Positions 8,550 to 59,637 of a stretch of 64,000 nt of DNA are shown here, one piece after another. Location: positions 1 to 64,000 of the forward strand of contig JAGLOO010000025.1 of assembly GCA_023138875.1 (NCBI GenBank), read 5' to 3'. The DNA is from Bacteroidales bacterium (GTDB lineage: Bacteria > Bacteroidota > Bacteroidia > Bacteroidales > GCA-2748055). Position 1 is the first letter of the stretch; each line of letters opens with the position of its first letter. Under the pieces are notes generated by a model, which did no database searches, was not told the origin of the DNA, and was given only the letters and a program-made list of their open reading frames with translations. Position numbers and translations under genes: made by a program.

Positions 8550-8552
8550 TGA

Positions 8553-11353: not shown

Positions 11354-13021
11354 ATGAAAGATTTGGATATTGCAAAAAAAGTGAAGCTTCAGCACATCTC
11401 TGAGATAGCAAAAAAACTTGGGGTGCCTGATGATGATATTGAAATGTATGGAAAGTACAAAGCCAAACTACCACTATCCTTTATTGATGAGAAAAAAGCT
11501 GCCAGGAGCAACCTGATCCTGGTATCTGCCATATCCCCAACGCCTGCCGGAGAAGGTAAAACAACCGTATCCATTGGATTATCTGAAGGACTAAACAAAT
11601 TGGGGAAGAAAACAACGGTCGTTTTAAGAGAACCCTCCCTGGGACCGGTATTTGGTATAAAAGGTGGTGCTACCGGTGGAGGATACTCCCAGGTACTTCC
11701 CATGGAGGACATCAACCTGCATTTCACAGGTGATTTCTCTGCCATTGAAAAGGCTCATAACCTTTTATCGGCCGTGATTGACAACAATATCCAGAGTAAA
11801 ACCATTGGATTGGGGCTGGATCCGCGGACCATATCATGGAAAAGGGTAATGGATATGAACGACAGGTCTCTTCGGCGGATTATCGTTGGACTTGGGGGGA
11901 CATCATCAGGAATACCCAGGGAAACAGGTTTTGATATTACAGCTGCATCTGAGATCATGGCCATCCTGTGTCTGGCAGCGGACATGCATGATCTGAAGAT
12001 TCGGCTGGGGAATATTTTTATTGGATATACATTTATGAAAGAACCTATCTATGCCCGTGATCTGAAAGCAGCAGGAGCTATGGCTGCCCTGCTTAAAGAT
12101 GCCATTAAACCCAACCTGGTACAAACCATTGAAGGGAATCCTGCCATTATACATGGAGGTCCTTTTGCAAACATTGCACAGGGTACCAATTCAGTCATAG
12201 CAACACGCATGGGCATGACTTTCTCAGATTATACAGTAACTGAAGCAGGATTCGGATTCGACCTGGGTGCTGAAAAATTCTTTGATATAAAATGTCAGAG
12301 TGCTGGTTTGTCTCCAAAAGCAGTTGTGCTCACAACAACCATACGTGCGCTCAAATATCACGGCGGTAAAGATCTAAAGTTACTGACCGAGCCGGATTGT
12401 AATGCATTAATACAGGGTTTGCCCAATCTGGAAAAGCATCTGGAGAATATCAAGCAATTTGGTGTAACCCCTGTGATTGCCATCAACAAATTCAGTTCAG
12501 ATACAGATGAGGAGATCCGGGTAATTCAAGAGAAAGCCAGGACCCTGGGAGTAAAATGTGCGGTGGCCAATCTCTGGGCCAGGGGTGGTGAAGGCGCTAT
12601 CGAGCTGGCTCAAGAAGTGATTGAAGTAGCTGAAACCAATCCTCCCATATTTGATCCGATGTATGACTGGAGCTGGGATGTAAAAAAGAAAATTGAAACC
12701 CTGGCGACCAGAATTTATGGAGCTGAACATGTGGTCTACTCCCCGCAGGCAAAAAAAGATCTGAAAAAGATATCGGAACTGGGTTTGGAACAGCTCCCCA
12801 TCTGTATAGCAAAAACACAAAAATCGCTTTCAGATAATCCTGCGTTGCTGGGAAGACCCAAAGATTTCATCATCACCGTGCGGGAAATTGAGATTGCAGC
12901 TGGCGCTGGCTTCCTGATCCCTATCACTGGAAATATCATGCGCATGCCGGGTCTGCCTGCCCATCCGGCATCGGAGAATATCAGCGTTGATAATGCAGGG
13001 AACATTACCGGACTGATTTAA
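11354..13021 (+). CDS. fhs: Formate-tetrahydrofolate ligase
   Basis: A 555-residue enzyme interconverting formate, THF and ATP with 10-formyl-THF, ADP and phosphate, in the cytoplasm. The P-loop TPAGEGKTT lies at 63-71. REPSLGPVFGIKGGATGGG, VIDNNIQSK and the C-terminal GNIMRMPGLP are strong family signatures, and the length is normal for Fhs. It is followed after 26 bases by the methyltransferase and then the methylene-THF reductase. In a methyl-oxidising direction this step yields ATP. No FolD is present here, so the middle steps must be encoded elsewhere. Confidence 0.97.
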   Translation: MKDLDIAKKVKLQHISEIAKKLGVPDDDIEMYGKYKAKLPLSFIDEKKAARSNLILVSAISPTPAGEGKTTVSIGLSEGLNKLGKKTTVVLREPSLGPVFGIKGGATGGGYSQVLPMEDINLHFTGDFSAIEKAHNLLSAVIDNNIQSKTIGLGLDPRTISWKRVMDMNDRSLRRIIVGLGGTSSGIPRETGFDITAASEIMAILCLAADMHDLKIRLGNIFIGYTFMKEPIYARDLKAAGAMAALLKDAIKPNLVQTIEGNPAIIHGGPFANIAQGTNSVIATRMGMTFSDYTVTEAGFGFDLGAEKFFDIKCQSAGLSPKAVVLTTTIRALKYHGGKDLKLLTEPDCNALIQGLPNLEKHLENIKQFGVTPVIAINKFSSDTDEEIRVIQEKARTLGVKCAVANLWARGGEGAIELAQEVIEVAETNPPIFDPMYDWSWDVKKKIETLATRIYGAEHVVYSPQAKKDLKKISELGLEQLPICIAKTQKSLSDNPALLGRPKDFIITVREIEIAAGAGFLIPITGNIMRMPGLPAHPASENISVDNAGNITGLI

Positions 13022-13047
13022 CCAGAACATATATAACCAAGATTCAT

Positions 13048-13896
13048 ATGAAAACGATATTAAAAGGCAAATCAACTGAAGTTGTCATTGATACAGACGG
13101 CCCTGTGATCATCATTGGTGAGAGTATCAATCCAACACGCAGGAAAAAACTGGTGGAAACACTATCTCAGAACAATTTCGAATTTGTGCTCGAACTGGCA
13201 AAGAGCCAGATGGAAGCCGGGGCCGATGTGCTGGATGTAAATGTAGGTTATCCCAGGGTAGATGACGCATCTCTGTTACCCGAGACCGTTAAAGCCATAC
13301 AGGAAAAATTTGACGTTCCGATATGCCTGGACTCACCCAACCCAGGAGCCATTGAAGCAGCGCTGAAGGTCATTGAAGGGAAATGCCTGATCAACTCCGT
13401 CAATGGGGAAGAGAAATCCCTCCAAACAATATTGCCCCTTGCAAAAGAACATGGTGCGGCAGTCATCGGGCTGGTCATGGACGATGACGGTATCACACAC
13501 GATCCGGAAAAAAGATTCAGGATTGCTGAAAAGATCCTGGGAAGAGCGATCCAGCTGGGAATCAAAGAAGAAGATGTGGTCATCGATCCGCTGGCCATGG
13601 CTGTGAGTGCGGATCCAAACGCATGCCTGGTAACCCTGGAAACCATCAAACTGGTCCATGACAGATTGGGACTGAACATCACCCAGGGAGCCAGTAATAT
13701 ATCCTTCGGGCTGCCAAACAGGGACCAATTGAACAGTGCTCATATGGCACTTTCCATCTGGAATGGATTGACCTGTCCCATTGCAAATCCAAATAAAATT
13801 ACGACCCTGATCAGGGCCACCGATCTGATTCGCGGAAAAGATGACTTCGCAATGAGATTTACTGAACATTATCAAAAGATGGAGGCCGTGAAATAA
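13048..13896 (+). CDS. Methyltetrahydrofolate:corrinoid methyltransferase (pterin-binding, AcsE/MtrH-like)
   Basis: A 282-residue protein that is essentially one pterin-binding TIM barrel. Family features are GPVIIIGESINPTRRKK near the N-terminus, GADVLDVNVGYP (about 58-69), a strand with CLDSPNP, CLINSVNGE, and ITQGASNISFGLPNR. This is the architecture of methyltransferase II of O-demethylase systems and of AcsE. It would move a methyl group between the corrinoid protein and THF. Its stop overlaps the start of the next gene by one base (TAATG), so translation is probably coupled to the reductase. Confidence 0.9.
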   Translation: MKTILKGKSTEVVIDTDGPVIIIGESINPTRRKKLVETLSQNNFEFVLELAKSQMEAGADVLDVNVGYPRVDDASLLPETVKAIQEKFDVPICLDSPNPGAIEAALKVIEGKCLINSVNGEEKSLQTILPLAKEHGAAVIGLVMDDDGITHDPEKRFRIAEKILGRAIQLGIKEEDVVIDPLAMAVSADPNACLVTLETIKLVHDRLGLNITQGASNISFGLPNRDQLNSAHMALSIWNGLTCPIANPNKITTLIRATDLIRGKDDFAMRFTEHYQKMEAVK

Positions 13897-15332
13897 TGGC
13901 GCTGTTTACTCCAGGCAGAAGATGGCAACCGCCCTTTTTCCCATTTAAAAAGGAGCCGTTTGGTAAACGTGTTCTCAGAAAAATTGAGCGCTGGACAAAA
14001 GGCCCCATGTTTGGCTGCAGGATGTGTGGCAACTGCCTCCTGCAAGAAACTGCATTTATCTGTCCCATGGAGTGCCCCAAAGGAATGCGAAATGGTCCCT
14101 GCGGAGGTTCCACACCAGAGAAATGCTATGTGGATGAAACACGGCCCTGTATCTGGTATAAGATCAATGAACGGGCCTTTAAAATGGGCCGGGAGGAGTT
14201 ACTCCTGGAAGTGTTGCCTCCACTGGATTGGGACAAAGTGGGAACAGAGACCTGGGGGGATGTGGTCCGTTCAATACGCAAATTCGGAACCGCATCTTTC
14301 CTGAAAAGTCGCTTCACCCGGGATAAGGAAAAGAAATCACATGCCTGGGAATCGGTGTTCAAACCCGTTAGACAGCCCGAATGGTGGCAGGGCGATTCAC
14401 TGTACCATCCCCCGGCCTATGAAGAACCTGTTTCCAATCTTGAACGGCAATTGCGCTCCGGGGGCTTTGTGGTCACTGCTGAGGTTTCACCACCCCTTGG
14501 TACGGCCACCGGAAAGCTGAAGAGAGATATTGACATGGTGAAGGAGCTGGTAGCAGCCATCAACTTCACTGACAGCGCTTCGGCCAGTCCCCGGATGTCC
14601 AGCATGGCATGCAGCAAGATTGCAGCTGAACTGGGAGCAGATCCGGTACTCCAGATCGCCGCCAGGGATAAGACACGCAGTGGTCTTCAATCGGATATTG
14701 TGGGTGCCAATGTGATGGGAGTTCGAAATGTGTTGTGCATTACAGGCGACAATGCCCGCATCGGGCCATCCCCCACCAGCAACACCAATATCCTGGACAT
14801 GGACGCAATCCAGATGCTATGGATACTCAGAAGAATGAGGGATGAAGGGATCTATCTGGACGGAAGAAAAATGAAATCACCACCACAACTTTTTCTCGGT
14901 GCTGCTGCATCCCCGTTCGCTTCCGAACCAAAATTTCAAGCCATAAGAGAACAGAAGAAAGTCAACGCTGGCGCCCAATTTTTCCAGACCAACCTCATTT
15001 TTGACCCGGATGGGATGGACCGCTGGCTGGAAGCCCTTTATAAGAGGGATATCATTGATAAGGTATATATCCTGGCTGGTGTGACCCCCATACGGAGTAA
15101 ACGCATGGCGCAATACCTTCACCACAATATTCCCGGGGTAACCGTGCCTGAAGAGATCCTGAACCGCTTTGAAAAATCCCGCGAGGATGACTACGAGGAG
15201 CTGGGAGTGGAGATTGCCCTGGAGATCATCGAGAAGATCAAAGACAAACAGGGAATTCACGGCCTGCACCTTATGTCGGTGGGTTGGGAGGCCATTGTTC
15301 CCCGCATCATTGCTGATGGAGGGCTGAACTAA
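13896..15332 (+). CDS. MetV-MetF fusion: methylenetetrahydrofolate reductase with N-terminal Cys-rich domain
   Basis: A 478-residue two-domain protein. The first ~110 residues are the MetV-like domain with eight Cys (41, 44, 47, 56, 60, 69, 77, 85), including CRMCGNC and CPMEC, likely ligands for zinc or Fe-S. From about 170 to the end is a MetF-type flavin barrel (VVTAEVSPPLGTATGK, then FTDSASASPRM, NVLCITGDN, GAQFFQTNLIFD, VYILAGVTPI). Acetogens usually carry MetV and MetF as separate genes. Here they are joined, with MetV first. It would interconvert methyl-THF and methylene-THF and is the last gene of the folate operon. Confidence 0.92.
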   Translation: MALFTPGRRWQPPFFPFKKEPFGKRVLRKIERWTKGPMFGCRMCGNCLLQETAFICPMECPKGMRNGPCGGSTPEKCYVDETRPCIWYKINERAFKMGREELLLEVLPPLDWDKVGTETWGDVVRSIRKFGTASFLKSRFTRDKEKKSHAWESVFKPVRQPEWWQGDSLYHPPAYEEPVSNLERQLRSGGFVVTAEVSPPLGTATGKLKRDIDMVKELVAAINFTDSASASPRMSSMACSKIAAELGADPVLQIAARDKTRSGLQSDIVGANVMGVRNVLCITGDNARIGPSPTSNTNILDMDAIQMLWILRRMRDEGIYLDGRKMKSPPQLFLGAAASPFASEPKFQAIREQKKVNAGAQFFQTNLIFDPDGMDRWLEALYKRDIIDKVYILAGVTPIRSKRMAQYLHHNIPGVTVPEEILNRFEKSREDDYEELGVEIALEIIEKIKDKQGIHGLHLMSVGWEAIVPRIIADGGLN

Positions 15333-44030: not shown

Positions 44031-45270
44031 ATGAGAAAGACAGGTTTAATCATTGTGGTGTTCTGTTTCATTTTTGTTTCAGTTCCTGCCCAGTTAAACG
44101 ATTCTTCATACCATGAGAAAATGGAATGGTTTAAAGACGCCAAACTGGGAATATTCATTCACTGGGGTATTTATTCAGTCTATGGCATTGATGAATCCTG
44201 GTCCTTCTTTAACAACTACATTTCCCATGATGACTATTTGAAGCAGCTGGATAGATTTTACAGCAGATCGTTACGATCCGGATTACTGGGTGGAATTGAT
44301 TGAAACCTGCGGTGCAAAATATGCTGTAATCACCTCAAAGCATCATGACGGTTTTGCACTCTGGAATACGGGGTATGGAAACTTAAACGCAGTGGAACAC
44401 TCTTCCGCCGGAAGGGATTTACTAACTCCATTTGTAGATGGGTTACGCAATCGCGGACTTAAAGTCGGATTATATTTTTCATTGCCTGATTGGTCTTATG
44501 GAGATTATACCCATCATACAAAGACTATCACTCGCTACAAACCTGACCGGGAACCCGACCGGTGGGAAAAATATCTCGATTATTACCAGGGGCAGCTTAT
44601 GGAACTTTCGGAAAAATATGATCCTGATTTGTGGTGGTTTGACGGGGACTGGGAACACAGTGGCGAGGAATGGCAGGTTGATAAGGTCCGCTCAATGCTG
44701 ATAAAGAAAAACCCGGGTGTTATCCTGAATTCACGTTTGCGGGGAAAGGGTGATTATGAAACTCCGGAGCAGGGACCTCCGGTAGTGCGCCCTGCTGCAA
44801 AATACTGGGAGCTGTGCCTGACAATGAATGATTCCTGGGGTTACCAGGCCAATGACAATCATTATAAAACTCCACAGCAGATCATTGACATTTTTACAGA
44901 CTGCATCAGTAAGGGTGGGAACCTGTTGCTGGATATAGGTCCGAAAGCCGACGGGACTATTCCTGAGGAACAAGTGGGTATCTTAAAGGAGCTTGGTACA
45001 TGGACTGGTAAACATAAAGATGCCATCTATGGAACGGAGCGTGGGATCCCATACGATCATTTTTACGGTCCGACGGCACTTTCTCAAGACAGTACCATAC
45101 TCTACCTGTTCGTGATAGGTGATTCCAACGGGCAGGTAACACTGAAAGGGATCTCTAATAAGATTAACAGGATCTGGGTTATTGGGAACGGCACCAAGTT
45201 GAATCATAAAGTCATGAGCAAGGTATTCTGGAATAAATATCCCGGCCTGACATATATTGAAAGTAATTAA
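44031..45270 (+). pseudogene. GH29 alpha-L-fucosidase with a +1 T frameshift
   Basis: A signal peptide (to VPAQ) and the GH29 start KLGIFIHWGIYSVYG are followed by a stop. Removing one T at 44256-44259 gives RFTADRYDPDYWVELIETCG and joins a 326-residue frame with SKHHDGFALWNTGYGN, the nucleophile region LWWFDGDW, and KGGNLLLDIGPKADGTIP. The C-terminus overlaps the AraC gene by 59 bases and may be slightly short. It would cleave terminal alpha-fucose. As with other genes here, the lesion may be a base-call error. Confidence 0.75.
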
Positions 45271-46159
45271 ATCTGTGTTTTCGATACCTGCTGGGAGTCA
45301 TACCAACCCACCTGGAAAAAGTGGAAGAGAAATGTTGGGAAGAATAAAACCCACAATCCAGGGCAATATTGGTCATACTCATACAAGTATTTTGCAGTTG
45401 CTCTTTTGCTTTTTCCAGGCGTAGATAAATTATATAATTTGCCGGAGTATATCCGGTATTTTCTTTTACAAGGTGTGTGAGAGTGGTAATTCCAAAATTA
45501 TTCATTTGGGCTAAATCGTGTAAAGTCCATTTCTTTGAAATGTTGGCCTTGATCAAATCATCGAATTTATTAAACCAGTTCTTATTCTCTTCTATTTGAT
45601 TTTCTTTGCTTTGAATAATTCGGACAGTGTCAATCAGGAATTCTTCAATAAGATTACTTGCTCGTTGGAAATAACCAAATTTCTTATTTTCAATTTCATG
45701 ATGTAAGCTTTCAAAAAGGATTTTAAGAGGTTGCGCTTTCTGAATTATATGTTTTGAGTTTTTAGAAAGTACAGCGCCGATTAATTTGTTTTCGGCAGAT
45801 GAAAAACGGGCCCAATCTCCTAAAAAAAATAATCCGTCTTTCGTGAATAGTTCAGGTTTTATTACAATCCAATAAATTTCACCTAAATCCACCACATCTC
45901 GTGGGCTACCATGTTGTTGCCATGGACAAGTCACAAATCCATTCCCCGGAAACAGCAGGTATTTTTTATCACCCACCACCCATTCATACCTTCCTTTGGT
46001 TACATAACATAATTCTATGCCCTCGTTATAGTGCAACCCAAGTGGTTTCTGGCGAATGTCTTTGTACTCTTCAAAACCAAAATCGTTAAGAAAACTGAAC
46101 TCTTTTAGTATTTCCGAATCGGATGCATCGCCATCTGTTTTCGAATAGAAAAAATGCAT
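45212..46159 (-). CDS. AraC-family transcription regulator
   Basis: A 315-residue regulator with a cupin-like N-terminal sensor (LHYNEGIELCYVTKGRYEWV, then KKYLLFPGNGFVTCPWQQHG) and a C-terminal AraC domain (WTLHDLAQMNNFGITTLTH, then TNIALDCGFYSSQHFSSTF and GMTPSRYRKH). It is divergent from the PhyH/sulfatase/GH38 genes, so it probably controls the mannan-type locus in response to a sugar. A 10-base inverted repeat lies just before its start. Confidence 0.88.
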   Translation of the reverse strand: MHFFYSKTDGDASDSEILKEFSFLNDFGFEEYKDIRQKPLGLHYNEGIELCYVTKGRYEWVVGDKKYLLFPGNGFVTCPWQQHGSPRDVVDLGEIYWIVIKPELFTKDGLFFLGDWARFSSAENKLIGAVLSKNSKHIIQKAQPLKILFESLHHEIENKKFGYFQRASNLIEEFLIDTVRIIQSKENQIEENKNWFNKFDDLIKANISKKWTLHDLAQMNNFGITTLTHLVKENTGYTPANYIIYLRLEKAKEQLQNTCMSMTNIALDCGFYSSQHFSSTFSRWVGMTPSRYRKHRFNYFQYMSGRDIYSRIPCS

Positions 46160-47070: not shown

Positions 47071-48532
47071 ATGAATTCAACTCTAAACCGATTGAAGTTA
47101 ACCCTTCTGGCTATTATTTGTATGGCTTTTTTTTTCATGCCAGGATGAGAAACAACCTCCGAATATCATCTTCATTATGAGCGATGACCATGCCTCCGGT
47201 GCCATAAGCGCTTATGGTAATTCTTTGTTGGAGACACCCAACATTGATAAACTGGCTGATCAGGGCATGAGGTTCAATAACTGTTTTAATATTGTTTCTC
47301 TTTGCGGGCCTAGCAAGGCAGCTATCCTTTCAGGGAAGTATAGCATTCATAACGGGTACATGCGCAATGGCGACAGCTTTGAAAGGAACCAGACAACCTT
47401 CCCAAAGCTCTTGCAGCAAGCCGGTTATGAAACAGCTATTATTGGCAAATGGCACCTGGTAACCCAACCTGCCGGATTCGATTATTATAATGTTATACCC
47501 TTCCAGGGGAAGTTTTTTGATTGCCCAATGAAAGAAACTGGGCAGAAGTGGCAAGACCGGGACAAAGGTGGAATTATTCAACCGGGTTATCTAACAGAAG
47601 TGATTACAGATAAAGCCATTGACTGGTTGAAAAACCGGGATAAAAAAAGACCTTTTTACCTGCTTGTACATCATAAAGCACCTCACGAACCTTATCATTA
47701 CCCTGAACGATACGAAGAGCTTCTGGAAGATAAAACAATTGCCGAGCCTGATAATTTTAATGATTCTTTCGATGGGAGAAACCATGTTTTGGCAAATAAT
47801 GAATGCAGGTATTCAAAATTCAGTTATATCAGTATGCCTTTTTTAAAAGATATCTTGCCGCAAGATATGGAAAATGGAACCGCTGATTATAAAACAGTTT
47901 CATACCCAATTGTCATGAAAGGATACCACAGGTTAGTTGCCGCTTTAGACGAAAATATTGGCAGGTTGATGGATTTTGTTGATAATTCGGAATTGGAGAA
48001 GAATACCATTGTAGTATATACTTCCGACAATGGATGGTTTTTGGGCGATCACGGGTTGTTTAATAAAATGTGGATGTACGAAGAATCATTACATGTTCCG
48101 CTAATTATCCGTTATCCGGGGAAAATTAAACCTGCAACCATGTCCGACGATTTTGTTTCAGTACTCGATTTTGCTCCAACTTTTCTCGATTATGCAGGAA
48201 TAAAAAAACCAGTACAATTTCAGGGGCAGTCTATAAAACCGGTCCTCAGTGGTAACACACCCGATGATTGGAAATCAGCTCATTTTTATCATTATTTTGG
48301 ACAGTTTGAGGTGCCATCACATTACGGAATTCGGACAAACGACTATAAGCTAATCTATTTCTACGAAGCTGAACAAGAACCCAAATGGGAACTGTATGAT
48401 ATGAAAAATGATCCTAAAGAGATGGTTAACTTAATTCATAATCCTGAGTACACAGACATTTTCAAAAACTTAGAAATACTTTTACTGGCAAAAAGGAAAG
48501 AATTTGAAGAAAGTAGAATCTGTAATATCTGA
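47071..48532 (+). pseudogene. S1 sulfatase, lipoprotein, with T9 frameshift and CGPSK signature
   Basis: Translation from ATG 47071 hits a stop after a run of nine T (47127-47135). With eight T it reads MAFFFSCQDEKQPPNIIFI, a proper lipoprotein signal running into MSDDHASGAISAYG and an intact 451-residue body (47177-48532). The body has WHLVTQPAGFDYY, YTSDNGWFLGDHGLF and VPLIIRYPGKI. The formylglycine motif is CGPSK instead of CxPSR (AAG for Arg). Starting at 47177 would lose the signal and first metal strand. The gene heads the mannan-type operon. Confidence 0.75.
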
Positions 48533-48584
48533 AGATTGATATCGTTGGACATGAATATAAATGAGTAATAAAAAGCAAATTATC

Positions 48585-51500
48585 ATGAATAAAATACGAA
48601 GCCTGATTGTATTATCTCTGCTACTGACTATTTCTGTCAGTGCACAAGATGACGATTTCCTGAAGAAGCAGCTTCAGTTCTTTGAGCAAATAGAAGGGAG
48701 TTACGAAGGATTTCAAACCAGCGAGTGCAAGAACATTATTTCCTACCACAGTCTGCGAAACGATATTAGTGAGGGCTTGATTACCCGAGCCAACGATGGG
48801 TCAATGGAAATAGAATGGCAGACACAGTCAATCCCAACCTATTTTAAAGCTGATGGGGCCAGGTTTGTGTGGCTTGCAGATATTGATAATAATGGTAAAG
48901 TAAATTTCGATGTTTTTATTGATGGAGAGAAACGGTTCACTTTTCCCTCGGGAACGAAAAAATCCTGGACCTTAACTCATCCGGACGGAGGTATTCTGAA
49001 ATTCCAGTTGTTTAATCTTGACCAGCATGGGGACAGCCAGGGGTATATGACTATGTATGCCCCTAAAAGCTGGTTAAAGGCCGGCAAACCATTAAATATT
49101 AAAATTGCAGGTGAGGCTGCCGGTGAAAATACATGGGTTATTGTTTTTAAAGCGGATGATATTATTGATTTTCTGGAGAAATCAATTGAATTTCAGGTTT
49201 GGCTGGATGTTTCAATTCGAGAGGTTCAGGGGCAAAATGAAGTTGTTGTTACTGCCCCGGCCAACCAGACCGGTAAAAAATTATCTTACGTTTCGGGAAA
49301 ACAGAAAGGCAGTATTTTACTTGAGAAAGAAGGTGACGTTTCCACAGCACAGTTCAACCTGGAAGGGAATATTAAAAACAAGAGATTTATAATAAGCGTT
49401 GACAACAGCGAGTTGTTATATCTCGATAATTTTAAGAAAGATACCATTTTAAGAAAGCTACTACCCAAAGCAGTAATAATAAATGAACTTGCAGTCAGCA
49501 ACGGGCTGTTCAAAGCAAAAAGCCGCAGGCTGTATAAACCGAAAACTGTAAAAAGTCTCCTGGCTTTGAACGGTTCAAAGCTTAGCAAGGGGAAAATATA
49601 CCTGATGAATTCCAGCCATCAGGACATTGCCTGGATGGACAGTCCTGAAAAATGTGTCCTTGAACGCGATACGATGCTGATTACCCCACTAATTGAACAA
49701 GCACAGGCAAACCCCAATTACCGTTTCGATATTGAAGATGCCCTGATGATTAAAGAATACATCGAAAGGCATCCTGATAAGAAAGAGAGTATCAGCCAAT
49801 TTTTTAAAGAAGGAAAGATTTCCTGTGGTTCAGGTTATACACAACCTTATGAAGAGATGTATTCGGGAGAAGCATTAATCAGGCAGTTTTATTTTGGCAA
49901 GAAATGGCTGAAGGATGAATTTAGCTATGATGCGAATACTTATTGGAATGTTGATGTACCTGGAAGGACACTACAGATGCCTCAGATATTAAAAAAATCT
50001 GGTTCAACTTATATGATGATTAGCAGGCATGAGGAGGGCATGTTTAACTGGTTTAGCCCTGATGGGTCTTTCGTTACAACCTATTCTCCGGGTCATTACG
50101 GCAAAGCCTATAAACCACTGCACAAGAATTTTTATGAGGCTGCAGAATATGTTGCTACCAGTTCAATGGAATGGGAAAAGTATTATTCAAAAAATACCAC
50201 GGAGAATGTAATCCCACTTTTGTCAGATTGGGATATGAGCCCAGCCAATGATTATTCTCACATCATTAATCAATGGGAAAGCATTTCTGAATTAACAGAT
50301 GAAAATGGTGTGAAAACGAAAATTGATTTACCACGGTTTAAAATTGTTACTGCACCCGAGTTTTTTGAGTCTTTTGTGGCGGCCTCAGACCCACTGCCTG
50401 CCATCACCGGCGAGAGACCGGCCTTGTGGCTTTACATCCATGGGCCGGGGCATCAAAAAGCACTAAAAGCCAGCCGCGAGGGAGATATATTGCTGACCAT
50501 GGCTGAAAAATTTGCCACCATAGATGCGTTGACGGTTCAGTCATTCAAAAATTATCCGGCAACCCGTTTGCAAAAAGCTTGGGAGGCTAAAATTTATCCC
50601 GACCATGGATGGGGCGGTAAAAACGGCCAGATTACAGATGACCTGTTCAGAAGAAAATTTGAGTTTGCCCGTAATGAAGCGAAACAAATCCTTGAAAATG
50701 CAAGCCGCTCCATATCATCAAAAATTTATACTGACCTAAAAAAAGGAAGTCCGGTAGTAATATTTAACAGCCTGAGTTGGAAGAGGACTGATGTTGTAGA
50801 TTTTCAGGTTAGTTTTAATGAAGGCGAAGCCAGGTCAATTGCTGCAAAGGATGCAAACGGAAATAATATTCCTGTTCAATACCAGATCGATAAACAATAC
50901 CCGGATGGCAGTATTCAGTCGGCAAAGGTTTACCTGATTGCCAAAAACATACCTTCTATTGGTTATCAAACCTATTACATACAAGCTTCAGAAGAAATTG
51001 CGAAATCGAACAAGGGGCCTTCTCTGGAAAATGAGTATTACAAGATTGCATTTGCCGATGGTGGTTTAAATAGTATTTACGATAAAAGTTTGCAGAAAGA
51101 AATAGTTGATGATTCGAAATTTGTTGCCGGCGAGGTGTTTACCATGCAATCGGTTGGTAATGGTGCAGGAGAGTTTGAGATGATACAACAACCCTCAATG
51201 AACGGGTTTGACCAAACAGGAGATCATTCAGGAGATTGGGAAGCAAAGGAATCGGGAGATATTTTTAGTTCCTGGGCAAAACGCAGCAAACTGCCCCATG
51301 CAGTGGTAGAACAAAAAATTATTCTTTACCATACAATAAAAAGAATCGATTTTGAAATTGCATTATTAAACTGGGAAGGCGAACTGTTTCGGGAATTCCG
51401 CATGGCATTGCCTCTGAAAATGCAAAACGGGCAGGTTGCTTACGAGGTTCCGTTTGGTGTGGTTGAAGTGGGGAAGGATGAAATGGAAGGAGCCGCAGGA

Positions 51501-52118
51501 GAACGGTATAACGTTCCTGCCAAAGACCTCCACCCCAGGGGAATAGAAAACTGGATAGGGGCAACGGATAATTCTATTGGTGTCACACTTAGTTCGTCCG
51601 TAGCAGTAGCAGATTATATCGACCCAACCGATGATCCGGTCTCTTATCCAATATTGCAGCCTGTTTTATTGGCTTCGCGTGTTAGTTGTCATGGTGAAGG
51701 AAATAAGTACCTGCAAACAGGGAATCATTTTTTCTCTTTCTCGCTTAGTTCGCATCAACCGGGTTGGGAAAATGGATACCGCTCAGGCAGGCAAGCCAAT
51801 GAGAAACTATTTGTAGTTGTGAATCCTGCAGCATATAAAAGTGCCTCTTTGCCTGAATCACAAAGCTTTTTTGGAATTGAATCCGACAACCTTATAATTT
51901 CTACCGTAAAAAAAGCTGAAGACGATAACAGCATCATTGTTCGTGTTTATGATGTTGAAGGCAAAGACACCGAATCAGTTCTAAAAACTTCCGGTACATT
52001 TAAAACAGCCATGCAAACCAATCTTATTGAGGAACCCAATAAACCTTTGAAGATTAATAAATCAGGGACAATTCTTAACGTTGGGCACCACGAAATTCAG
52101 ACCATAAAACTGAAGTAA
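48585..52118 (+). CDS. GH38-family alpha-mannosidase, secreted
   Basis: The ATG at 48585 starts a clear signal peptide (LIVLSLLLTISVSAQ); a start at 48561 would add eight polar residues. The protein has 1177 residues. An N-terminal beta-rich region of about 330 residues precedes the GH38 catalytic domain. Its metal motif is HQDIAWMD (His345) and the nucleophile is Asp457 in YWNVDVPGRTLQMPQ. The mid and C-terminal beta domains follow (for example VVIFNSLSWKRTDVVDF). It would release alpha-mannose in the periplasm or outside. It follows a sulfatase and precedes a GH76-like protein, consistent with a sulfated alpha-mannan substrate. Confidence 0.9.
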   Translation: MNKIRSLIVLSLLLTISVSAQDDDFLKKQLQFFEQIEGSYEGFQTSECKNIISYHSLRNDISEGLITRANDGSMEIEWQTQSIPTYFKADGARFVWLADIDNNGKVNFDVFIDGEKRFTFPSGTKKSWTLTHPDGGILKFQLFNLDQHGDSQGYMTMYAPKSWLKAGKPLNIKIAGEAAGENTWVIVFKADDIIDFLEKSIEFQVWLDVSIREVQGQNEVVVTAPANQTGKKLSYVSGKQKGSILLEKEGDVSTAQFNLEGNIKNKRFIISVDNSELLYLDNFKKDTILRKLLPKAVIINELAVSNGLFKAKSRRLYKPKTVKSLLALNGSKLSKGKIYLMNSSHQDIAWMDSPEKCVLERDTMLITPLIEQAQANPNYRFDIEDALMIKEYIERHPDKKESISQFFKEGKISCGSGYTQPYEEMYSGEALIRQFYFGKKWLKDEFSYDANTYWNVDVPGRTLQMPQILKKSGSTYMMISRHEEGMFNWFSPDGSFVTTYSPGHYGKAYKPLHKNFYEAAEYVATSSMEWEKYYSKNTTENVIPLLSDWDMSPANDYSHIINQWESISELTDENGVKTKIDLPRFKIVTAPEFFESFVAASDPLPAITGERPALWLYIHGPGHQKALKASREGDILLTMAEKFATIDALTVQSFKNYPATRLQKAWEAKIYPDHGWGGKNGQITDDLFRRKFEFARNEAKQILENASRSISSKIYTDLKKGSPVVIFNSLSWKRTDVVDFQVSFNEGEARSIAAKDANGNNIPVQYQIDKQYPDGSIQSAKVYLIAKNIPSIGYQTYYIQASEEIAKSNKGPSLENEYYKIAFADGGLNSIYDKSLQKEIVDDSKFVAGEVFTMQSVGNGAGEFEMIQQPSMNGFDQTGDHSGDWEAKESGDIFSSWAKRSKLPHAVVEQKIILYHTIKRIDFEIALLNWEGELFREFRMALPLKMQNGQVAYEVPFGVVEVGKDEMEGAAGERYNVPAKDLHPRGIENWIGATDNSIGVTLSSSVAVADYIDPTDDPVSYPILQPVLLASRVSCHGEGNKYLQTGNHFFSFSLSSHQPGWENGYRSGRQANEKLFVVVNPAAYKSASLPESQSFFGIESDNLIISTVKKAEDDNSIIVRVYDVEGKDTESVLKTSGTFKTAMQTNLIEEPNKPLKINKSGTILNVGHHEIQTIKLK

Positions 52119-52141: not shown

Positions 52142-52429
52142 ATGGACTACAGAGATAGAATATTAAACATCCTGCAAGGGTATTTCCCTTATAAGCAAAT
52201 AATTGAAAATTGTGAAGTTGTTGAATGGAACGAAGCAGTAGCTTTACCACTCAAACCCGGTTCGTGCGTCCTGCACCATGGGGCTACAGTTCATTATGGC
52301 AGGGGGAATACAACCAACAATCAGAGAAGGGCAATGATCGTTAATTTAAAGCCTCAAAAAATGATTAACTATGAGAGGGAACACTGATTCGACCATCCAG
52401 GTGAGAATAAAGTACGGAACAATGGTTGA
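52142..52429 (+). pseudogene. PhyH gene fragment (second copy of the 3' end)
   Basis: An 81-residue frame whose second part (from about residue 32) is the PhyH tail: ALPLKPGSCVLHHGATVHYG and [24 protein letters not shown] at 52385-52387 replaces the Gly codon of the other copy; the frame then continues to 52429. Its first 30 residues do not match PhyH, and no iron-binding H-x-D is present. It is a non-functional duplicate lying between GH38 and the GH76-like gene. Confidence 0.7.
52232..52419 (+). repeat. 188-bp direct repeat, copy 2
   Basis: Partner of 46824-47011. The two copies bracket the sulfatase and GH38 genes in the same orientation. Confidence 0.85.
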
Positions 52430-52457
52430 AAGAGAAATGCTCAAAAAGACAAAAAAT

Positions 52458-53849
52458 ATGGAAAGGCGGAAATTCATTAGACTGTTGGGGAGCCTGGCTA
52501 CAATCATGACCAGCACCGGTATACTGTTCGCATGTAAAAATTCAATGGACAGCGATATTGAAGACAAACTGAAAACATGGGCAATAGCTGCATTCAAGCG
52601 CTTCGAAGAGATCTGGAAGTTTAATGATTTCTGGAAAAGAGGCAACACGTTTGATGCTTGTCTAACCTTTGTAGACGCAGCGCAACAACGATGGCCACAT
52701 GATCCGGCGGTTAAGGAAATGCAAATGAAAGTAAATGATATGCTGGAAGAAAATCTTGTCTTCTTTAACAGTTTTGATCCCGGCGATCTTTGGGCTGATG
52801 ATTTTGGTTGGTGGGGGCTCATGGCTCTCAACGCTCGCAAACATTTGCTTAAAAAAAGTGAAACAATACTAGCGGATAAATACCTGAGGCTTTCAACCGA
52901 TTTGTGCTGGGAATATAAAAAGAAAACAGCCTATGACCATACTACAACAGCTATTCCCGTTCCGCACGGCTGCCGAAACGGAGATGCCAACGGGATCAGC
53001 AAAGGGGTTAAGAATACCGTTACCAATGTTTTGTTATTTCTGCTTTCCTCCCGTATATACCGCTTAACCCTGGCTGAAAATATCAAGGATAATGATAAAT
53101 ACCTGGATATGGCATATCGGCAATGGTTGTGGTTCGAACATTGGTTTAAACTTGATAAATATGAATACCTGAAAAAGATATCACCTTCCGGGGCTTTGGT
53201 ACAAGAGCGGCCAATGGCCTTTTTTGAAGGTTCTGGCTACCAGGAGAAAATACATCCTCCCTGGGCTGAAGGCTGGATATGGACAGGTGATCAGGGCATG
53301 CTGGTTGGCGCTCTTACCGATATGTTTTCGGTGAGGAATGAACTGGCAGAATGGATTGCCAGGAACAATATCGATCCCGGCTTTGACCCCGTTGCTTTTG
53401 AGAAAAAAATACGCGCTCTAATAAAGTTGATTGGCAATGGCGTAAAAATAGCATTAATCAGCGATAAAGATGGCATTATCCGTGAAGCACCTTGCTTATC
53501 GAGTTTCGGGCCAAACCACGGAAATGATTATCTGGCCGGTCGTGGTATCATGATGCGCTATCTTGGAGCCAACGAAGAGAAAGCTCTTCTTGGAGTTGAC
53601 CTGAGTGAAAATATTATGGCTACGGCAGATGCGATCTGGCAAACGCGTGATACAGAGAAAAACCAGTTTCAACCTGAATTTACCACTCTTGAAAATGACA
53701 AGCTCTATATTGAGCAGTTCAGAAAGCTTTGGGGGCTAGCGGATAATATCCGCGAGTGGGATATTAAAACGATGAAAGAGCAGAACAAACAGGGTGTTTG
53801 TCAGTCCATAGGATTTGACGCTCTGGGTGCTGCGATTAAGCTACTGTAA
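52458..53849 (+). CDS. GH76-like alpha-mannanase-type lipoprotein
   Basis: The ATG at 52458 ([11 protein letters not shown]) is preferred; it starts a lipoprotein signal with lipobox LFAC. The 463-residue body looks like an (alpha/alpha)6 barrel with a [17 protein letters not shown] motif, then AVPHGCRNG-like and [20 protein letters not shown] segments. WTGDQG and DDxxWW patterns recall GH76 endo-alpha-1,6-mannanases. The usual tandem catalytic Asp pair is not obvious to me, so GH76 is a fold-level guess. Context with GH38, an epimerase and a sugar porter supports a glycosidase role. Confidence 0.6.
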
Positions 53850-53879: not shown

Positions 53880-55226
53880 ATGAAAAAATCACTTATCCTT
53901 TATGCATTGGTTGCTGCCCTCGGTGGATTCCTGTTTGGTTTTGATACAGCAGTTATTAACGGGGCTTTACCTTTTTTCAGAGATTATTTTCAGCTTGATA
54001 AAGTAATGGAAGGCTGGGCTATGAGTTCGGCAATTTTAGGTTGTATCGTGGGGGCAATTGGCATTGGTAAACCCGGAGATATTTACGGTAGAAGAAACAT
54101 GTTGAAAGTTATGGCTGCACTATTTCTGGTTTCAGCAATTGGGACTGGTACGTCAACCAATATTACTTCTTTCATTATTTTTCGCATTATTGGAGGTCTG
54201 GCCGTGGGAGGTTCTTCGGTATTGTCACCCATGTATATTTCTGAGATAGCTCCTGCAAAATTCAGGGGGCGTCTGGCTATCACTTTTCAATTGGCATTGG
54301 TAATAGGTATTTTATTAGCTTTTGCTACCGACCTGGCATTAATTAATACCGGAGTAAATAACTGGCGTTGGATGTTTATTTCAGAAGCAGGCCCTGCAAT
54401 TCTGTTTTTTGCTTTATTGTTCTTTGTGAGTCGGAGCCCTCGCTGGCTGGTAAAAACCGGAAATTATGATAAAGCCAGGCTTGTAATCGAAAAAGTGAAT
54501 CCGACAACCGATAGCAGTAAGTTGCTTCAGGAAATAAAAGAGTCCATCGACAGTGAAGTGATGGAACACGTTAAATATCTGTTTAAAAAACCATATTTAA
54601 GATTAGTAATTATTGGTATTTTAATTGGAATGTTTAACCAAACTACCGGTATTGCTATTGTAATGATTTATTCCAGCGATATTTTCAGGGCAGCAGGTTT
54701 TGGAACCGAATCAGCGATTTTGCAAACTGTAATCGTAGGTTTTACCAATCTTACATTCACCATTATTGCAATGACACTGATTGACAAAATTGGCAGGAAA
54801 TTATTATTGCTACTTGGTTCTGTGGGAATGACGATTTTCCTGGGCTTATTTTCTTATGTATTTTTCTTCGATATTGGTGGATTTATGCCTCTCATTTTTA
54901 TGATTAGTTTTGTTGCCTGCTTTGCATTCTCGCAGGGGGCAGTTGTTTGGGTGTTGTTTGCCGAAATGTTTCCCAATAATATCAGATCAAGGGGCGTTTC
55001 CATCGGATCGTTCTCACACTGGGTGTTTTATGCCATTTTACTATTCTTTTTCCCGGTTATAAAAAAATCATTCTCCGATAATAGCGGGATAGGATATATT
55101 TTTGCCTTTTTCGCTTTTGCTACATTAATAAGCTACTTTTTTTATAAAAAGTTTATTGTGGAAACAAAAGGTAAAACGCTGGAACAAATTGAGAAAGATT
55201 GGGAAATCGGAGAAAAGAAACATTGA
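53880..55226 (+). CDS. MFS sugar porter (XylE-like)
   Basis: A 448-residue transporter with 12 membrane segments. Sugar-porter signatures: GGFLFGFDTAVINGALPFF, the loop-2 GKPGDIYGRRNML, SRSPRWLVKTGNYDKA, and the tail VETKGKTLEQIE. It would import a monosaccharide, plausibly mannose from the upstream mannosidases, by proton symport. It starts 30 bases after the GH76-like gene and is followed after 32 bases by the epimerase. The frame is intact. Confidence 0.92.
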   Translation: MKKSLILYALVAALGGFLFGFDTAVINGALPFFRDYFQLDKVMEGWAMSSAILGCIVGAIGIGKPGDIYGRRNMLKVMAALFLVSAIGTGTSTNITSFIIFRIIGGLAVGGSSVLSPMYISEIAPAKFRGRLAITFQLALVIGILLAFATDLALINTGVNNWRWMFISEAGPAILFFALLFFVSRSPRWLVKTGNYDKARLVIEKVNPTTDSSKLLQEIKESIDSEVMEHVKYLFKKPYLRLVIIGILIGMFNQTTGIAIVMIYSSDIFRAAGFGTESAILQTVIVGFTNLTFTIIAMTLIDKIGRKLLLLLGSVGMTIFLGLFSYVFFFDIGGFMPLIFMISFVACFAFSQGAVVWVLFAEMFPNNIRSRGVSIGSFSHWVFYAILLFFFPVIKKSFSDNSGIGYIFAFFAFATLISYFFYKKFIVETKGKTLEQIEKDWEIGEKKH

Positions 55227-55258: not shown

Positions 55259-56533
55259 ATGATGAATCCATCAGGCAACGAATTGCAATTGTATCAAAAC
55301 AAATTCCACCTGGAACTGACAAATATTCTCGCCTGGTGGCAGGAGCATGCTGTTGAAAAAAGCGGAGATGGATTCTATGGTGCAGCCGACCTGGAAGGAA
55401 AGCCAGTTCCGGATGCCAATAAATCCTGTGTACTCAATGCCCGCATATTATGGACTTTCTCTGCTGCTGCAATAATGCATGACAATGCGGCTTACCGGGA
55501 TATGGCCGCCAGGGCATTCAGAGTTATTTCTGAAAAGTTTACAGATCATGAGTTTGGCGGGTTCTTTATGGAATTAACCCCCGAAAACAATATTGCCAGT
55601 GACATCAAACACACCTATGCACAGGCGTTCGTTGTGTATGCACTGAGTAAATACTATGAAATGGAGCCATCACCTGAACTAATGGATACGATTCAAACCA
55701 ACTTTCACCTGCTGGAGGAAAAAACCAGGGATCAACAACACCCGGGATATATTGAAGCTTTTACAAGGGAGTGGAAGCCTGTTCAGGAAAACCGCATGGC
55801 CGACAACAATGAGCCCAGGTCCATGAATACCCATTTGCATGTCCTGGAAGCTTACACTGCACTTTATAATGTCTGGAAGGATGAACAGGTCAAGGAAAGG
55901 CTTACCGGGCTGCTGAATATTTTTCTCCAAAAGATCATTCGGGATAACGGGCATCTCGGGATATTCTTTGATGAAGATTTCAATGAAACTGAATCCTCAA
56001 AAGGAATCTGTTCTTTCGGTCACGACATCGAAGGTTCATGGTTGCTTTTAGAAGCAGCAGAATTATTGGGTGATCAGAAAATCACTTCAGCGATGAAGAA
56101 TATATCGGTTAAAATGGCCGGCGTGGTGAAGCGGGAAGGAGTCGACAAAGATGGCGGATTGTTCCTCGAATCGGTCAGGTTCGGGAGCCATCTCCGCACA
56201 AACAAGCACTGGTGGCTGCAGGCCGAGAACCTGGTGGGCTTCATGAATGCCTTTGAACTTACCGGGGATGATAAATACTGGGAAACCGTTAAACTTTCCT
56301 GGGATTTTATAGACAGGCATGTCATTGATCATAACAGGGGTGAGTGGTACACAAAAGTGAACAGGCTGGGGATTCCGTTTCTTACTGAGCCCGAAAATGA
56401 TCCTTCGCCCTACTATCGCAACGACTGGAAGATCGATCCGTGGAAATGCCCGTACCATAACGGTCGGGCCATGATGGAGCTGGTCAGGAGAATAGAACGA
56501 ATCCTTACCATCCAAACAATTAAACTGAAATAA
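55259..56533 (+). CDS. AGE-family epimerase (cellobiose/mannobiose 2-epimerase-like)
   Basis: A 424-residue cytoplasmic (alpha/alpha)6 protein with no signal peptide. Family features: GDGFYGAADLEGKPV, KSCVLNARILWTFSAA, NTHLHVLEAYTALY with the catalytic-region His, CSFGHDIEGSWLLLEAAE and EWYTKVNRLG. Members interconvert glucose and mannose units at C2 of free or disaccharide sugars. After a mannose transporter it would feed mannose units into glucose metabolism. Cellobiose 2-epimerase and N-acylglucosamine 2-epimerase cannot be separated by eye. Confidence 0.88.
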   Translation: MMNPSGNELQLYQNKFHLELTNILAWWQEHAVEKSGDGFYGAADLEGKPVPDANKSCVLNARILWTFSAAAIMHDNAAYRDMAARAFRVISEKFTDHEFGGFFMELTPENNIASDIKHTYAQAFVVYALSKYYEMEPSPELMDTIQTNFHLLEEKTRDQQHPGYIEAFTREWKPVQENRMADNNEPRSMNTHLHVLEAYTALYNVWKDEQVKERLTGLLNIFLQKIIRDNGHLGIFFDEDFNETESSKGICSFGHDIEGSWLLLEAAELLGDQKITSAMKNISVKMAGVVKREGVDKDGGLFLESVRFGSHLRTNKHWWLQAENLVGFMNAFELTGDDKYWETVKLSWDFIDRHVIDHNRGEWYTKVNRLGIPFLTEPENDPSPYYRNDWKIDPWKCPYHNGRAMMELVRRIERILTIQTIKLK

Positions 56534-56570: not shown

Positions 56571-57590
56571 ATGAACGGACATGAACGAATCAGTGCTGCC
56601 CTGGAGGGTAAGGCAACGGACACCACACCCATAATGCTGCATAACTTCATGATGGCAGCAAAAGAATCCGGTGTAAGCATGGAACAATACAGAAACGACC
56701 CGCAAATAATCAGTAGATCTTTCATGGCATCGGTAGAAAAGTATAAATTCGATGGTATTCTCGTTGACATTGATACGGTCACACTGGCCGGAGCCGTTGG
56801 TGTACCGGTTGACTTTCCTGTCGAGGAGCCTGCCCGGACACATCAGGGAAACCTGCTCAGTCTGGAGGATGTGAGATCGTTAAAACCTGCCAACATAGAA
56901 GGTTATAAATACATTCAGATCTGGCTCGAAGCAGTGCGATTGCTGAAAGAATATTTCAAAGATGAGATCTATATCCGGGGCAACTGTGATCAGGCGCCCT
57001 TCTCGCTGGCAAGCATGATGCGGGGACCCCAGAACTGGATGATGGATTTAATGATAACGGAAGAAAACCTGATCAATGAATTGCTGGATTACTGTACAGA
57101 TGCAACTTCGCAATTCATTACATTAATGGCTCAAACCGGGTGCGATATGGTTTCGAATGGTGATAGTCCGGCTGGCCCGGAGATGATCTCTCCTGATATG
57201 TATGAGCAATATGCCCTTCCTTTCGAAAAGAAAATTGTGGATATTGCTCACCAAGCAGGATTACATTATGCGCTCCATGTTTGTGGAAATACAGATGTCA
57301 TTCTCGACAAAATGCTGAAAACAGGTGCGGATGCATTTGAACTGGATTATAAAACCGATGTACAAAAAGCATTCGATATTTATCATGATAAGGCAACCCT
57401 GATCGGGAATATCGATCCGAGCGGTGTGCTGGCGCTGGGAACAGCAGATATGGTCAGACAAAAGACCCGGGAATTGCTGGAAACCTATAAAACTTCAAAT
57501 CGTTTTATTCTGAATGCAGGCTGTGCAATCCCACCCAATACACCAGACAGGAATCTAACTGCAATGTTAGACGTAGCAAGAGATTTTTAA
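56571..57590 (+). CDS. UroD-superfamily zinc methyltransferase (MtaA/MtbA/O-demethylase type)
   Basis: A 339-residue TIM-barrel protein of the uroporphyrinogen decarboxylase superfamily. It has the zinc-ligand pattern of cobalamin-dependent methyltransferases: His236 and Cys238 in LHVCGNTDVIL and Cys318 in LNAGCAIPPNTP. GNCDQAPFSLASMMRGP and NGDSPAGPEMISPDMY are typical substrate-pocket regions. A true heme-pathway UroD would lack this Cys/His site. It should move a methyl group between a corrinoid protein and a thiol or an O-methyl substrate. It lies 37 bases after the epimerase in the mannan-type operon and far from the corrinoid protein at 8.5 kb, the only one in the window. Confidence 0.85.
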   Translation: MNGHERISAALEGKATDTTPIMLHNFMMAAKESGVSMEQYRNDPQIISRSFMASVEKYKFDGILVDIDTVTLAGAVGVPVDFPVEEPARTHQGNLLSLEDVRSLKPANIEGYKYIQIWLEAVRLLKEYFKDEIYIRGNCDQAPFSLASMMRGPQNWMMDLMITEENLINELLDYCTDATSQFITLMAQTGCDMVSNGDSPAGPEMISPDMYEQYALPFEKKIVDIAHQAGLHYALHVCGNTDVILDKMLKTGADAFELDYKTDVQKAFDIYHDKATLIGNIDPSGVLALGTADMVRQKTRELLETYKTSNRFILNAGCAIPPNTPDRNLTAMLDVARDF

Positions 57591-57731: not shown

Positions 57732-59637
57732 TTATGCTGCATGATCAAGAAGAAAGTTTAGCTTTTTCTTCAAAATACTTTTTAAAATTTCCAGGGATTT
57801 CAAGTCTTCTTCGATTTTCTTCTTTTTGGCCATAGTGATTACATACTCAATCATATATTGTTGGTCTGTGATTTTTTGATATAAAGATTCCCAGGTTGTC
57901 ATATCAACAAATTCCCAATAATCTTTTGCAATATTAGCATGAAGTTTTAACTGTTTTACCAAAAACCTGCCATCAATTTTTATTGTATTGGATAGCATCC
58001 CTGTAAATCGTTTCACAACTTTCTCATGCAAACCTTCCCCTGTATATTTCCATTGAAAAGGTTTGACCAATATGCTATTCCAAAAATTTTCATATTCCTT
58101 TATTGCCTTATGCAGTGCATCGGGAGAATGGTATGTTTCATGCAAGCATTTTGCATTGAGCATTCCAATATCCATAGTATCAAGTTCTTTTTCCAGCGGG
58201 CAATTTATCTTGCTGTATTTAGCGACTAACCGGCATAACTCATAACAACAATGAGAGTTAAGATTATCCATGATGTAATCAAGTTGCTGGTCTTTTGGGG
58301 CGCGTTCCAGATAGGTTTCAAAAACCTCAACTATTGTTTCTTTTTTATGGTTTGAACGACATTCCGTAAAAACTTCTCCTGTGTTTACATTCATCAAAAC
58401 AATACAAGTTTATTGGCGGATTATTATACAGGTATATCAGATGCGTCATTTTAGGGAAAAATCAGGGTCTGAAATATGTAAAAAATACCTGGAGCGATGG
58501 GGTTTTAAATCATTTTCACTCAATATTCTATGTATGCTTGTCTTCGATATTGACAAGCCTGTTATTTCCGGGTGGCTATCCAAATACCTTGATGCAAATC
58601 GTATCGTCCAGCGGCCACTATCACAGAAGGGGCGCGTTTGGCAATAGAAACCGATCAATAACGAACGTGCTTTGTCATCAAATGTTACGGGTCTGCCACT
58701 TCTTGGCATATCATAAATATCCCCCCGTTTTTGCCAACGATCTACTGTACTTACGTGACAATCAACCTGCCGGGAAATCGAACACTTGCCTTGATCTTCA
58801 TTGCTAAGTTGTTGGATCAAGTTCCGCTTGTAAGCACGAATAATGCTTGGCAAATTATCCTGTTTTAACATTAATGCTGCTGCCAATTCACAGAGTTTTT
58901 TTTAACCCGATAAGTTGTCGTAGGTGTCCGGTTTTCCCTTTTAAACCCAAACCGGAAATATGAAAACGTATGCTTCTTTCGCTCAGCTTTAGTGAAGTAC
59001 GTTGATGTAGATTAGCTGCCAATACCGGACTTGACGTTGATTTTCCTGTTGCAGCATTTGCGGCAAACTGTAATATTAATTCTGACTTTATTTCCGGGGT
59101 AAAAACGTAATCTTTTTGCTGACCCTTTCTTTTGTCAATCAAGCAGGAAATATCCCCGGTACGTATCTTATGCAAAAGTTTATCTGTGTTGCCGCTACTA
59201 CAATTTAAGGCCCTGGCCGCTTCTTTCCTGTTTATTATTCCATTATCAAGAAATGTCAATACTATGGTTTTATACTGGAGCACATTGTCCTTCGAGATCT
59301 TAATTATTTTGCTTGTACTGCCAAAATGTAATTCCAGTTGGCTTTCTTCTATTGAACAAGTTAAAGCACTTTGTGTAATATCAGATTGTCGCTGTGGCTT
59401 TGTTCGCCTGTCAAGAAAACCAGAAGGACCGTATTTATTTATCCTTGTAAAAAAAGACAACATTGTATCCAGTGGGATTTCCAAATATTTAGCAATCTCA
59501 TTTCTGTTTGCACCCAACAGGAAAAGGGCATAAGCAATTATCCTGTTTACAAACATTTTCCCTAAAATCTTACGTCCATGTAAAAGTCTATTATTTCTAT
59601 GGGCAATTGAATAATTTAAGTCTGGGAGGCAATTCAT
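57732..59637 (-). mobile_element. IS630-like transposase remnant, frameshifted and internally deleted
   Basis: Three frames on the minus strand form one transposase. 59637-58888: N-terminal helix-turn-helix region (MFVNRIIAYALFLLGANR, then RKEAARALNCSSGNTDKLL). 58886-58446: a second HTH (CHVSTVDRWQKRGDIYD) and SIHRILSENDLKPHRSRY. 58397-57732: DDE part (NVNTGEVFTECRSNHKKE, LDYIMDNLNSH, WKYTGEGLHEKVVKRF). The first switch is in A8 near 58890. Past 58446 another frame reads to YCFDE, the first catalytic Asp, and then about 45 residues are missing. No terminal inverted repeats were found. It is inactive. Confidence 0.7.

Follow-up and report, generated by a model that had tools for sequence, protein, structure and literature searches.

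The gene at 56571–57590 (+ strand) of the window, the whole 64,000-nucleotide stretch of Bacteroidales DNA analysed here, encodes a UroD-superfamily zinc methyltransferase. With a probability of about 0.58, we propose that this protein is the methyltransferase I (MT-I) of a corrinoid-dependent demethylation of an imported, methylated sugar-like molecule, which would proceed stepwise as laid out in the last section. What is shown directly is the protein's family, zinc motif and fold class, the gene order, and the co-occurrence and occasional linkage with a corrinoid carrier.

The zinc protein and its sugar locus

The open reading frame starts with ATG and encodes 339 aa, and its single URO-D domain (PF01208, E 2.7e-68) spans residues 4–338, that is, the whole protein, which places it in the UroD superfamily. 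The zinc motif reads LHVCGN...NAGCAIPPNTP, with H236, C238 and C318 as ligands of a predicted zinc site, and aligns with LHICGN...APGCGIAPMTP of M. mazei MtaA (PDB 4ay7); by alignment it has the His-x-Cys...Cys ligands of MtaA, MtbA and CmuA. Among 78 aligned family members, taken from 81 loci, H236 and C238 never vary and 77 members retain C318, and therefore the motif is not due to chance; the H-x-C...C site that a preliminary description had read in this single protein is thereby borne out. Moreover, nine polar residues close to the ends of strands (H24, N25, D66, R136, N138, D140, Q141, N196 and E257) are nearly invariant (75–78 of 78); the corresponding positions of MtaA read T, G, P, V, G, a gap, E, I and S, respectively. 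Such residues, mostly non-polar in MtaA, would suit a pocket for a polyol or sugar-like ligand. CmuA shares the His-Cys-Cys triad in our alignment, but combines MT-I and carrier in one protein (PMC13222342, in the text available); a CmuA-like fusion enzyme was ruled out here by the length and the single domain.

The gene is the last of six on the + strand. They are a sulfatase (47177–48532; PF00884, E 5.8e-55), a GH38 protein of the alpha-mannosidase family (48561–52118; PF01074, E 4.3e-29), a GH76-like protein (52371–53849; PF03663, a weak match at E 4.7e-8), an MFS sugar porter, the proposed substrate importer (53880–55226; PF00083, E 3.4e-109), an AGE-family epimerase (GlcNAc/cellobiose/mannose 2-epimerase-like, 55259–56533; PF07221, E 1.2e-46) and the UroD gene itself. 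Both the company of these families and the 37 bases between epimerase and UroD gene agree with the preliminary description, and the 37-base gap holds an AAGGAG stretch. By the look of its start, the GH76-like protein is secreted, and comparison with loci L043 and L219 makes an internal ATG near 52458 its probable true start. An AraC-type regulator on the − strand (45212–46159; HTH_18, E 4.8e-22), whose start is by eye nearly the same in the L219 regulator, possibly controls the sugar operon. A scan for promoters and terminators gave no excess over shuffled sequence. The alpha-L-fucosidase reading frame at 44290–45270 matches its family profile only from position 100, its start being missing or in another frame, and the frames directly downstream of the UroD gene (57732–59637, −) resemble by eye transposase pieces of insertion elements.

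We then compared the surroundings of the gene in the 81 loci (80 relatives and the window; 29 of the 80 have full 10-kb flanks, and many are shorter). Homologs of the MFS porter are present in 39 loci, of the epimerase in 28, of the GH38 protein in 27, of the sulfatase in only 8 and of the GH76-like protein in 7. The directly adjacent same-strand genes (112 of the 113 found, one gene being able to match more than one family) include 19 of MFS, 8 of URO-D, 7 of AGE, 6 of GH38, 5 of BPD_transp_2 (ABC permeases, sugar importers among them), 3 of GH29, 2 of SSF and 2 of GH89. The sugar porter is the commonest neighbour and the mannoside and sugar-import context recurs in many genera, which makes an imported sugar-like molecule the probable substrate. 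A methylated, sulfated mannose polymer had been suggested as substrate. Its mannoside part finds support in these counts; its sulfate part does not, and the sulfate link of the system was dropped as weak. In two genomes of the same genus, a similar protein of 362–363 aa is encoded near the window-type UroD (L045:39–1130, −; L046:3842–4930, +); the L045 protein has no Pfam match at E 0.001 and looks by eye like a distant UroD relative.

Oxygen had also been named as the methyl-bearing atom, a point which the zinc ligands leave unsupported or open. In its available text, PMC10418091 ties the His-Cys-Cys zinc set to methyltransferases of sulfur and selenium, and ties carboxylate or non-ligand residues replacing a zinc Cys to O-methyl enzymes; the present family retains both Cys and does not follow the latter, aryl O-demethylase pattern. 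On this ground the MT-I might act, with the same carrier, on an S-methyl or Se-methyl compound and not on an O-methyl sugar, which we regard as unlikely but of real weight, and which overlaps with our main reading if the thioether is itself a sugar. Consistent with a sulfur or selenium substrate, UroD paralogs elsewhere in the genome carry other triads: H-x-D at contig C58, HC...H at three genes of contig C35 and HC-N at C65. However, the neighbours of the family are often sugar importers, epimerases and glycosidases, and no sulfur or selenium family is found among the 25 listed of the 99 families of the 112 adjacent genes. Moreover, CmuA, a chloromethane enzyme, has the same triad, which is then not specific to sulfur; therefore, the rule of PMC10418091 does not settle sulfur versus oxygen, though it counts against the O-methyl wording. 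By the same rule, the C58 gene with H-x-D, which stands next to a sulfatase-like gene, would be a better O-methyl candidate.

Altogether, the genome has seven further URO-D matches, genes or remnants, on C58, C35 (four places), C65 and C61; the one at C35:17707 is a short frame and that of C61 is broken into frames. By eye, the sulfatase-like gene lies before the C58 gene, and a fucosidase-like gene after one of the C35 genes. Against the sulfur reading, no methylthio sugar is known to us as common in mannans. Against our main reading, the leaving groups of alkyl methyl ethers are poorer than those of the aryl ethers on which known corrinoid O-demethylases act. For the imported sugar-like substrate of our main reading, we give oxygen a slight edge over sulfur or other soft atoms as the methyl-bearing atom.

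The corrinoid carrier and its probable UroD partners

The carrier (8553–9221, −) is of the methyltransferase-cognate type, with B12-binding and B12-binding_2 domains and with matches to the MtgC and TIGR02370 models under their cut-offs. It is followed by a corrinoid reductive activase of RACo type (7050–8549, −; PF14574, E 3.4e-63). Divergent from it lies a regulator that is AraC-type by appearance (9365–10234, +), a 51% identical protein of which stands beside the carrier in locus L206. Further along the + strand are the formate channel FocA (10417–11268; TIGR04060, 295.7 bits against a cut-off of 290.1), formate-tetrahydrofolate ligase (11354–13021; PF01268, E 3.7e-256), a methyl-THF:corrinoid methyltransferase proposed as acceptor-side MT-II (13048–13896; NF005719, 270.6 bits against a cut-off of 259) and an MTHFR with a DUF5981 domain (13896–15332; PF02219, E 2.5e-31; PF12225, E 1.8e-25). 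Judged from these families, the module at 7050–15332 is a plausible methyl-to-formate sink.

Within this module no MT-I was seen near the carrier, and UroD gene and carrier lie 47 kb apart, unlike in a type 1 mlp gene cluster, where Mlp genes, carrier and activase stand together. A B12-binding_2 search of the genome gave four matches, of which only the 8553–9221 carrier is on the window's contig; the preliminary description, which had seen one carrier in the window, some 48 kb away and with no MT-I beside it, was accurate in this respect. A second free carrier is located on contig C25, in a methanol (MtaB-type) cluster (C25:11930–16559, locus L049:6930–11559) which comprises carrier, MtaB (PF12176, E 1.7e-203), RACo-type activase and DUF1638. 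Methanol use by the window UroD was set aside, since the genome has this MtaB, carrier and activase set of its own. MT-I, carrier, activase and MT-II can all be assigned in the genome, the role of the first being proposed from family and co-occurrence.

We analyzed the co-occurrence of carrier and UroD proteins in 247 genomes of the order, the window genome included, all at least 90% complete. For non-HemE UroD proteins, at most 8 URO-D candidates were scored per genome and one HemE-type match (>300 bits) was subtracted where present. Standalone carriers were those matching at E ≤1e-30; 42 genomes matched, and 5 with the match in frames of at least 580 aa were left out, giving 37. A non-HemE UroD is found in 34 of the 37 genomes with the carrier versus 17 of the 210 without it (Fisher p 1.3e-25), and at least two in 32 of the 37 versus 5 of the 210, these counts being uncorrected for relatedness. 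The carrier-positive genomes are spread over 23 families, and in 21 of these a non-HemE UroD is likewise found; three of the 37 genomes have none. In a class-wide sample, the carrier is present in 0 of 148 other genomes. URO-D matches occur in 95 of these, one each except in G172, with two partial matches, and in G179, with two copies, and at 238–460 bits they are taken as HemE type by score.

The window UroD family itself (E ≤1e-50; at least 54% identity) is present in 6 of the 247 genomes, our own included, and all six have the carrier (Fisher p 8e-6). Genome G040, left out of this count with a shorter 59% fragment of the family, also has the carrier. Among 50 genomes with the family gene, picked for spread from the 80, 49 match the carrier query and 48 have a standalone carrier; G447 matches only in a MetH-like frame and G423 has no carrier match. 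The co-occurrence across genomes is hence strong, contrary to the lack of it that the preliminary description had named as part of a refuting outcome. A separate folate methyltransferase match (frame of at most 563 aa) is found in 8 of the 50, five of these being 69–75% identical to that of the window, and the other matches lie in MetH-like frames; therefore, the folate route is not general.

Physical linkage was also observed. The carrier lies within the flanks of the family UroD in 3 of the 80 loci (L219, L206 and L216) and in none of the flanks available for the other 77, where a rough random placement, assuming 1–2 carriers per 4.7-Mb genome, would give 0.2–0.5 of 80. In Sunxiuqinia (L219), epimerase, GH38, MFS porter, GH76-like protein, UroD and, after 476 bases, the carrier (63%) follow each other on one strand; further along are another UroD, which carries a thioredoxin domain, then CobW and a protein that matches the MetH activation domain. 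In L206 and L216 the carrier is within 10 kb of the family UroD. A fourth linkage was seen from the carrier side in Puteibacter, where the sugar operon (L225) adjoins the carrier cluster (L322) at about 10 kb.

The carrier has several kinds of neighbours. In 38 carrier loci (40 stretches), labelled by best BLAST match, we found a folate methyltransferase with MTHFR in 5, an MtaB-type gene in 9, an activase in 9, the UroD-thioredoxin type in 11 and another UroD in 16. Hence folate to formate is just one ending among several, and methanol could be freed where the ending is of MtaB type. UroD gene and carrier had been put forward as halves of one pathway, and their membership of one system is well supported; the idea of an exclusive pair was given up, because several UroD types are found paired with the carrier.

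Several carrier loci are described here in their own right. In L113 of genome G058 (5626–10194, one strand), GH31, UroD (HCC), carrier and UroD (FCC) are adjacent, so that a glycosidase stands directly in the carrier set. Phe replaces the zinc His in carrier-near UroDs of L219 (12175–13521), L031, L032, L076, L077, L116 and L119; the L219 one has a Thioredoxin_3 domain and the G058 one a weak thioredoxin-like match, and CobW and MetH-activation-like genes are often near this Phe type. The carrier stands beside an MtaB-type gene in L206:855–3029, L300–L303, L308, L309, L311, L331 and L336; such carriers, with no folate methyltransferase label nearby, could mean methanol release. On plasmid pTs417 of the gammaproteobacterium Thiodictyon (L194, 5332–8665), a cobalamin-dependent protein, a UroD reading HTAG at the place of the second zinc Cys and an ASKHA-domain protein lie side by side; the search of plasmids for reference sequences that gave this set also gave CmuA.

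The seven further URO-D matches, the second free carrier with its MtaB and activase, and the other UroD types beside the carrier in relatives would also fit a UroD that acts in the sugar locus without the 8.5-kb carrier, which would then serve those other UroDs or an MtaB system, the co-occurrence reflecting a shared lifestyle. We hold this to be improbable, because three to four loci link the window family with this carrier type, one of them on a single strand, and the carrier accompanies the family in 6 of 6 and 48 of 50 genomes. Returning to a UroD that does work with the carrier, we tentatively suggest a wider arrangement, which we would rate somewhat below even chances: several phyla may demethylate sugars without oxygen, with one carrier as hub and, as spokes, UroDs of differing zinc ligands in glycan and sugar-import loci. 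The methyl group might leave by any of three interchangeable modules: by folate to formate (as here), by a reversed MtaB-type enzyme as methanol, or through the UroD-thioredoxin fusion, and the window gene would be the mannose-type spoke.

Fold and phylogeny of the family

An AF2 model of the window UroD, built from five sequences, has a pLDDT of 82.5. Its best solved match is MtaA (4ay8 by E-value; 4ay7 with a TM score of 0.87; 22–23% identity), and HemE structures rank next. Family, zinc site and fold together support a corrinoid-type methyltransferase. The curated models score below their cut-offs, with 168.6 versus 235.4 for TIGR01463 (mtaA_cmuA), 149.4 versus 400 for MtaA and 146.4 versus 600 for MtbA.

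In a careful tree of 41 rows rooted on HemE, the family members form a single long-stemmed clade (100/100). Joining it to MtaA (p-AU 0.307) or to CmuA (p-AU 0.103) is rejected in neither case, in trees that hold few references, are without the MtvB, OdmB, VdmB and MtoB aryl O-demethylases, and have many long branches. A first tree placed a 14-row His-Cys-Cys clade as sister to the family (SH-aLRT 94); the careful tree, which holds more family members, does not support this placement and draws the fork in question open. CdmB (9rui) is matched by the broad family profile at 2.8e-22. Among these few references, and with a joining to MtaA or CmuA unrejected, no placement inside a clade of known function emerged from the phylogeny that the preliminary description had proposed as a check. 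By sequence, the window UroD is a member of its own clade, outside the known subfamilies by curated cut-offs and distributed across several phyla. Scanning species genomes yielded 171 relatives, the best 80 of which span Bacteroidota, Ignavibacteria, Acidobacteria, Planctomycetes, an Akkermansiaceae bacterium, Neomarinimicrobiota, KSB1 and others.

The closeness to MtaA, which is the nearest solved structure, has the same triad and is not rejected as a joining partner in the tree test, would fit an acceptor-side role in which the methyl group passes from the methylated carrier to a thiol. This we judge very improbable, given that a folate acceptor enzyme is already near the carrier, that sugar-import and glycosidase genes accompany this UroD, and that the scores fall below the MtaA, MtbA and mtaA_cmuA cut-offs. 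A decarboxylase or haem-synthesis enzyme, suggested by the URO-D Pfam family and by 109.9 bits with the HemE model TIGR01464, is practically negligible and HemE identity was ruled out, since the cut-off is 302.95, the aligned HemE has no His-Cys-Cys site and the two HemE references are apart from the window UroD in both trees.

Proposed demethylation pathway and its relation to known systems

With the protein as donor-side MT-I, we infer the reaction, its direction, the substrate and the order of the steps as follows. GH38 and GH76-like enzymes, presumably outside the cytosol, would free a mannose-type sugar from a glycan, and the MFS porter would import the freed, methylated sugar. In the UroD protein, the His-Cys-Cys zinc would bind the atom that bears the methyl group; the methyl group itself would then go to the Co(I) of the carrier (8553–9221), which the RACo protein (7050–8549) would keep active. 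In the window organism, the methyl group would pass to tetrahydrofolate by the enzyme at 13048–13896, and MTHFR and later steps would oxidise it to formate with a gain of ATP, the formate leaving through FocA. The demethylated sugar would enter hexose metabolism, with interconversion by the AGE epimerase.

Several known systems resemble this scheme. MtaA and MtbA, the methylcobamide:coenzyme M methyltransferases (SCMTs), share the UroD fold and the His-x-Cys...Cys motif with the window protein, MtaA being its closest structure, but differ from it in the low identity, the sub-cut-off scores, the conserved polar positions and the sugar context. MtvB, OdmB, VdmB and MtoB, together with CdmB, follow the same logic of MT-I, corrinoid carrier, activase and folate-side methyltransferase. 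The available text of PMC8630106 describes the Mto system as a three-component corrinoid O-demethylase, and that of PMC13222342 places CdmB and the O-demethylases in the UroD superfamily and has them acting on methoxylated aromatics or haloalkanes, with zinc in some and absent in others. Unlike in these three-component O-demethylases and CdmB, the genes of the window are split between hub and sugar loci. The mlp clusters (Mlp1-3, for methyl-sulfur and methyl-selenium compounds; PMC10418091, in the text available) likewise have UroD, carrier, activase and His-Cys-Cys ligands, and their multi-UroD layout recalls L113 and L219. However, the window has no UroD beside its carrier, and sugar families, not sulfur or selenium ones, are among the commonest adjacent genes.

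Glycans of algae, plants, molluscs and microbes, porphyran among them, contain methylated sugars. The only enzymatic demethylation of such a sugar that we found in print, in the text available, is oxidative, by a P450 acting on 6-O-methyl-galactose, a methylated algal sugar (PMC10033563, PMC12316285). The P450 route is that of a monooxygenase giving formaldehyde, whereas the proposed route is corrinoid-based and needs no oxygen. A paper of 2025 states, in its available part, that the mechanism of sugar demethylation in anaerobic bacteria is not known (PMC12316285). A corrinoid route for sugars was not found in the open-access literature, by titles and the starts of abstracts among the matches listed.

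The family is also present in Parabacteroides gordonii, Draconibacterium aestuarii, Puteibacter caeruleilacunae and Labilibacter sediminis, and the question of anaerobic sugar demethylation is therefore directly testable in named strains. If the substrate proves to be a thioether, the family would point to an unknown methylthio sugar economy. If the wider hub-and-spoke arrangement is true, it would be the oxygen-free counterpart of P450 sugar demethylation that has hitherto been missing, and an O-methyl substrate would extend corrinoid chemistry to alkyl methyl ethers.
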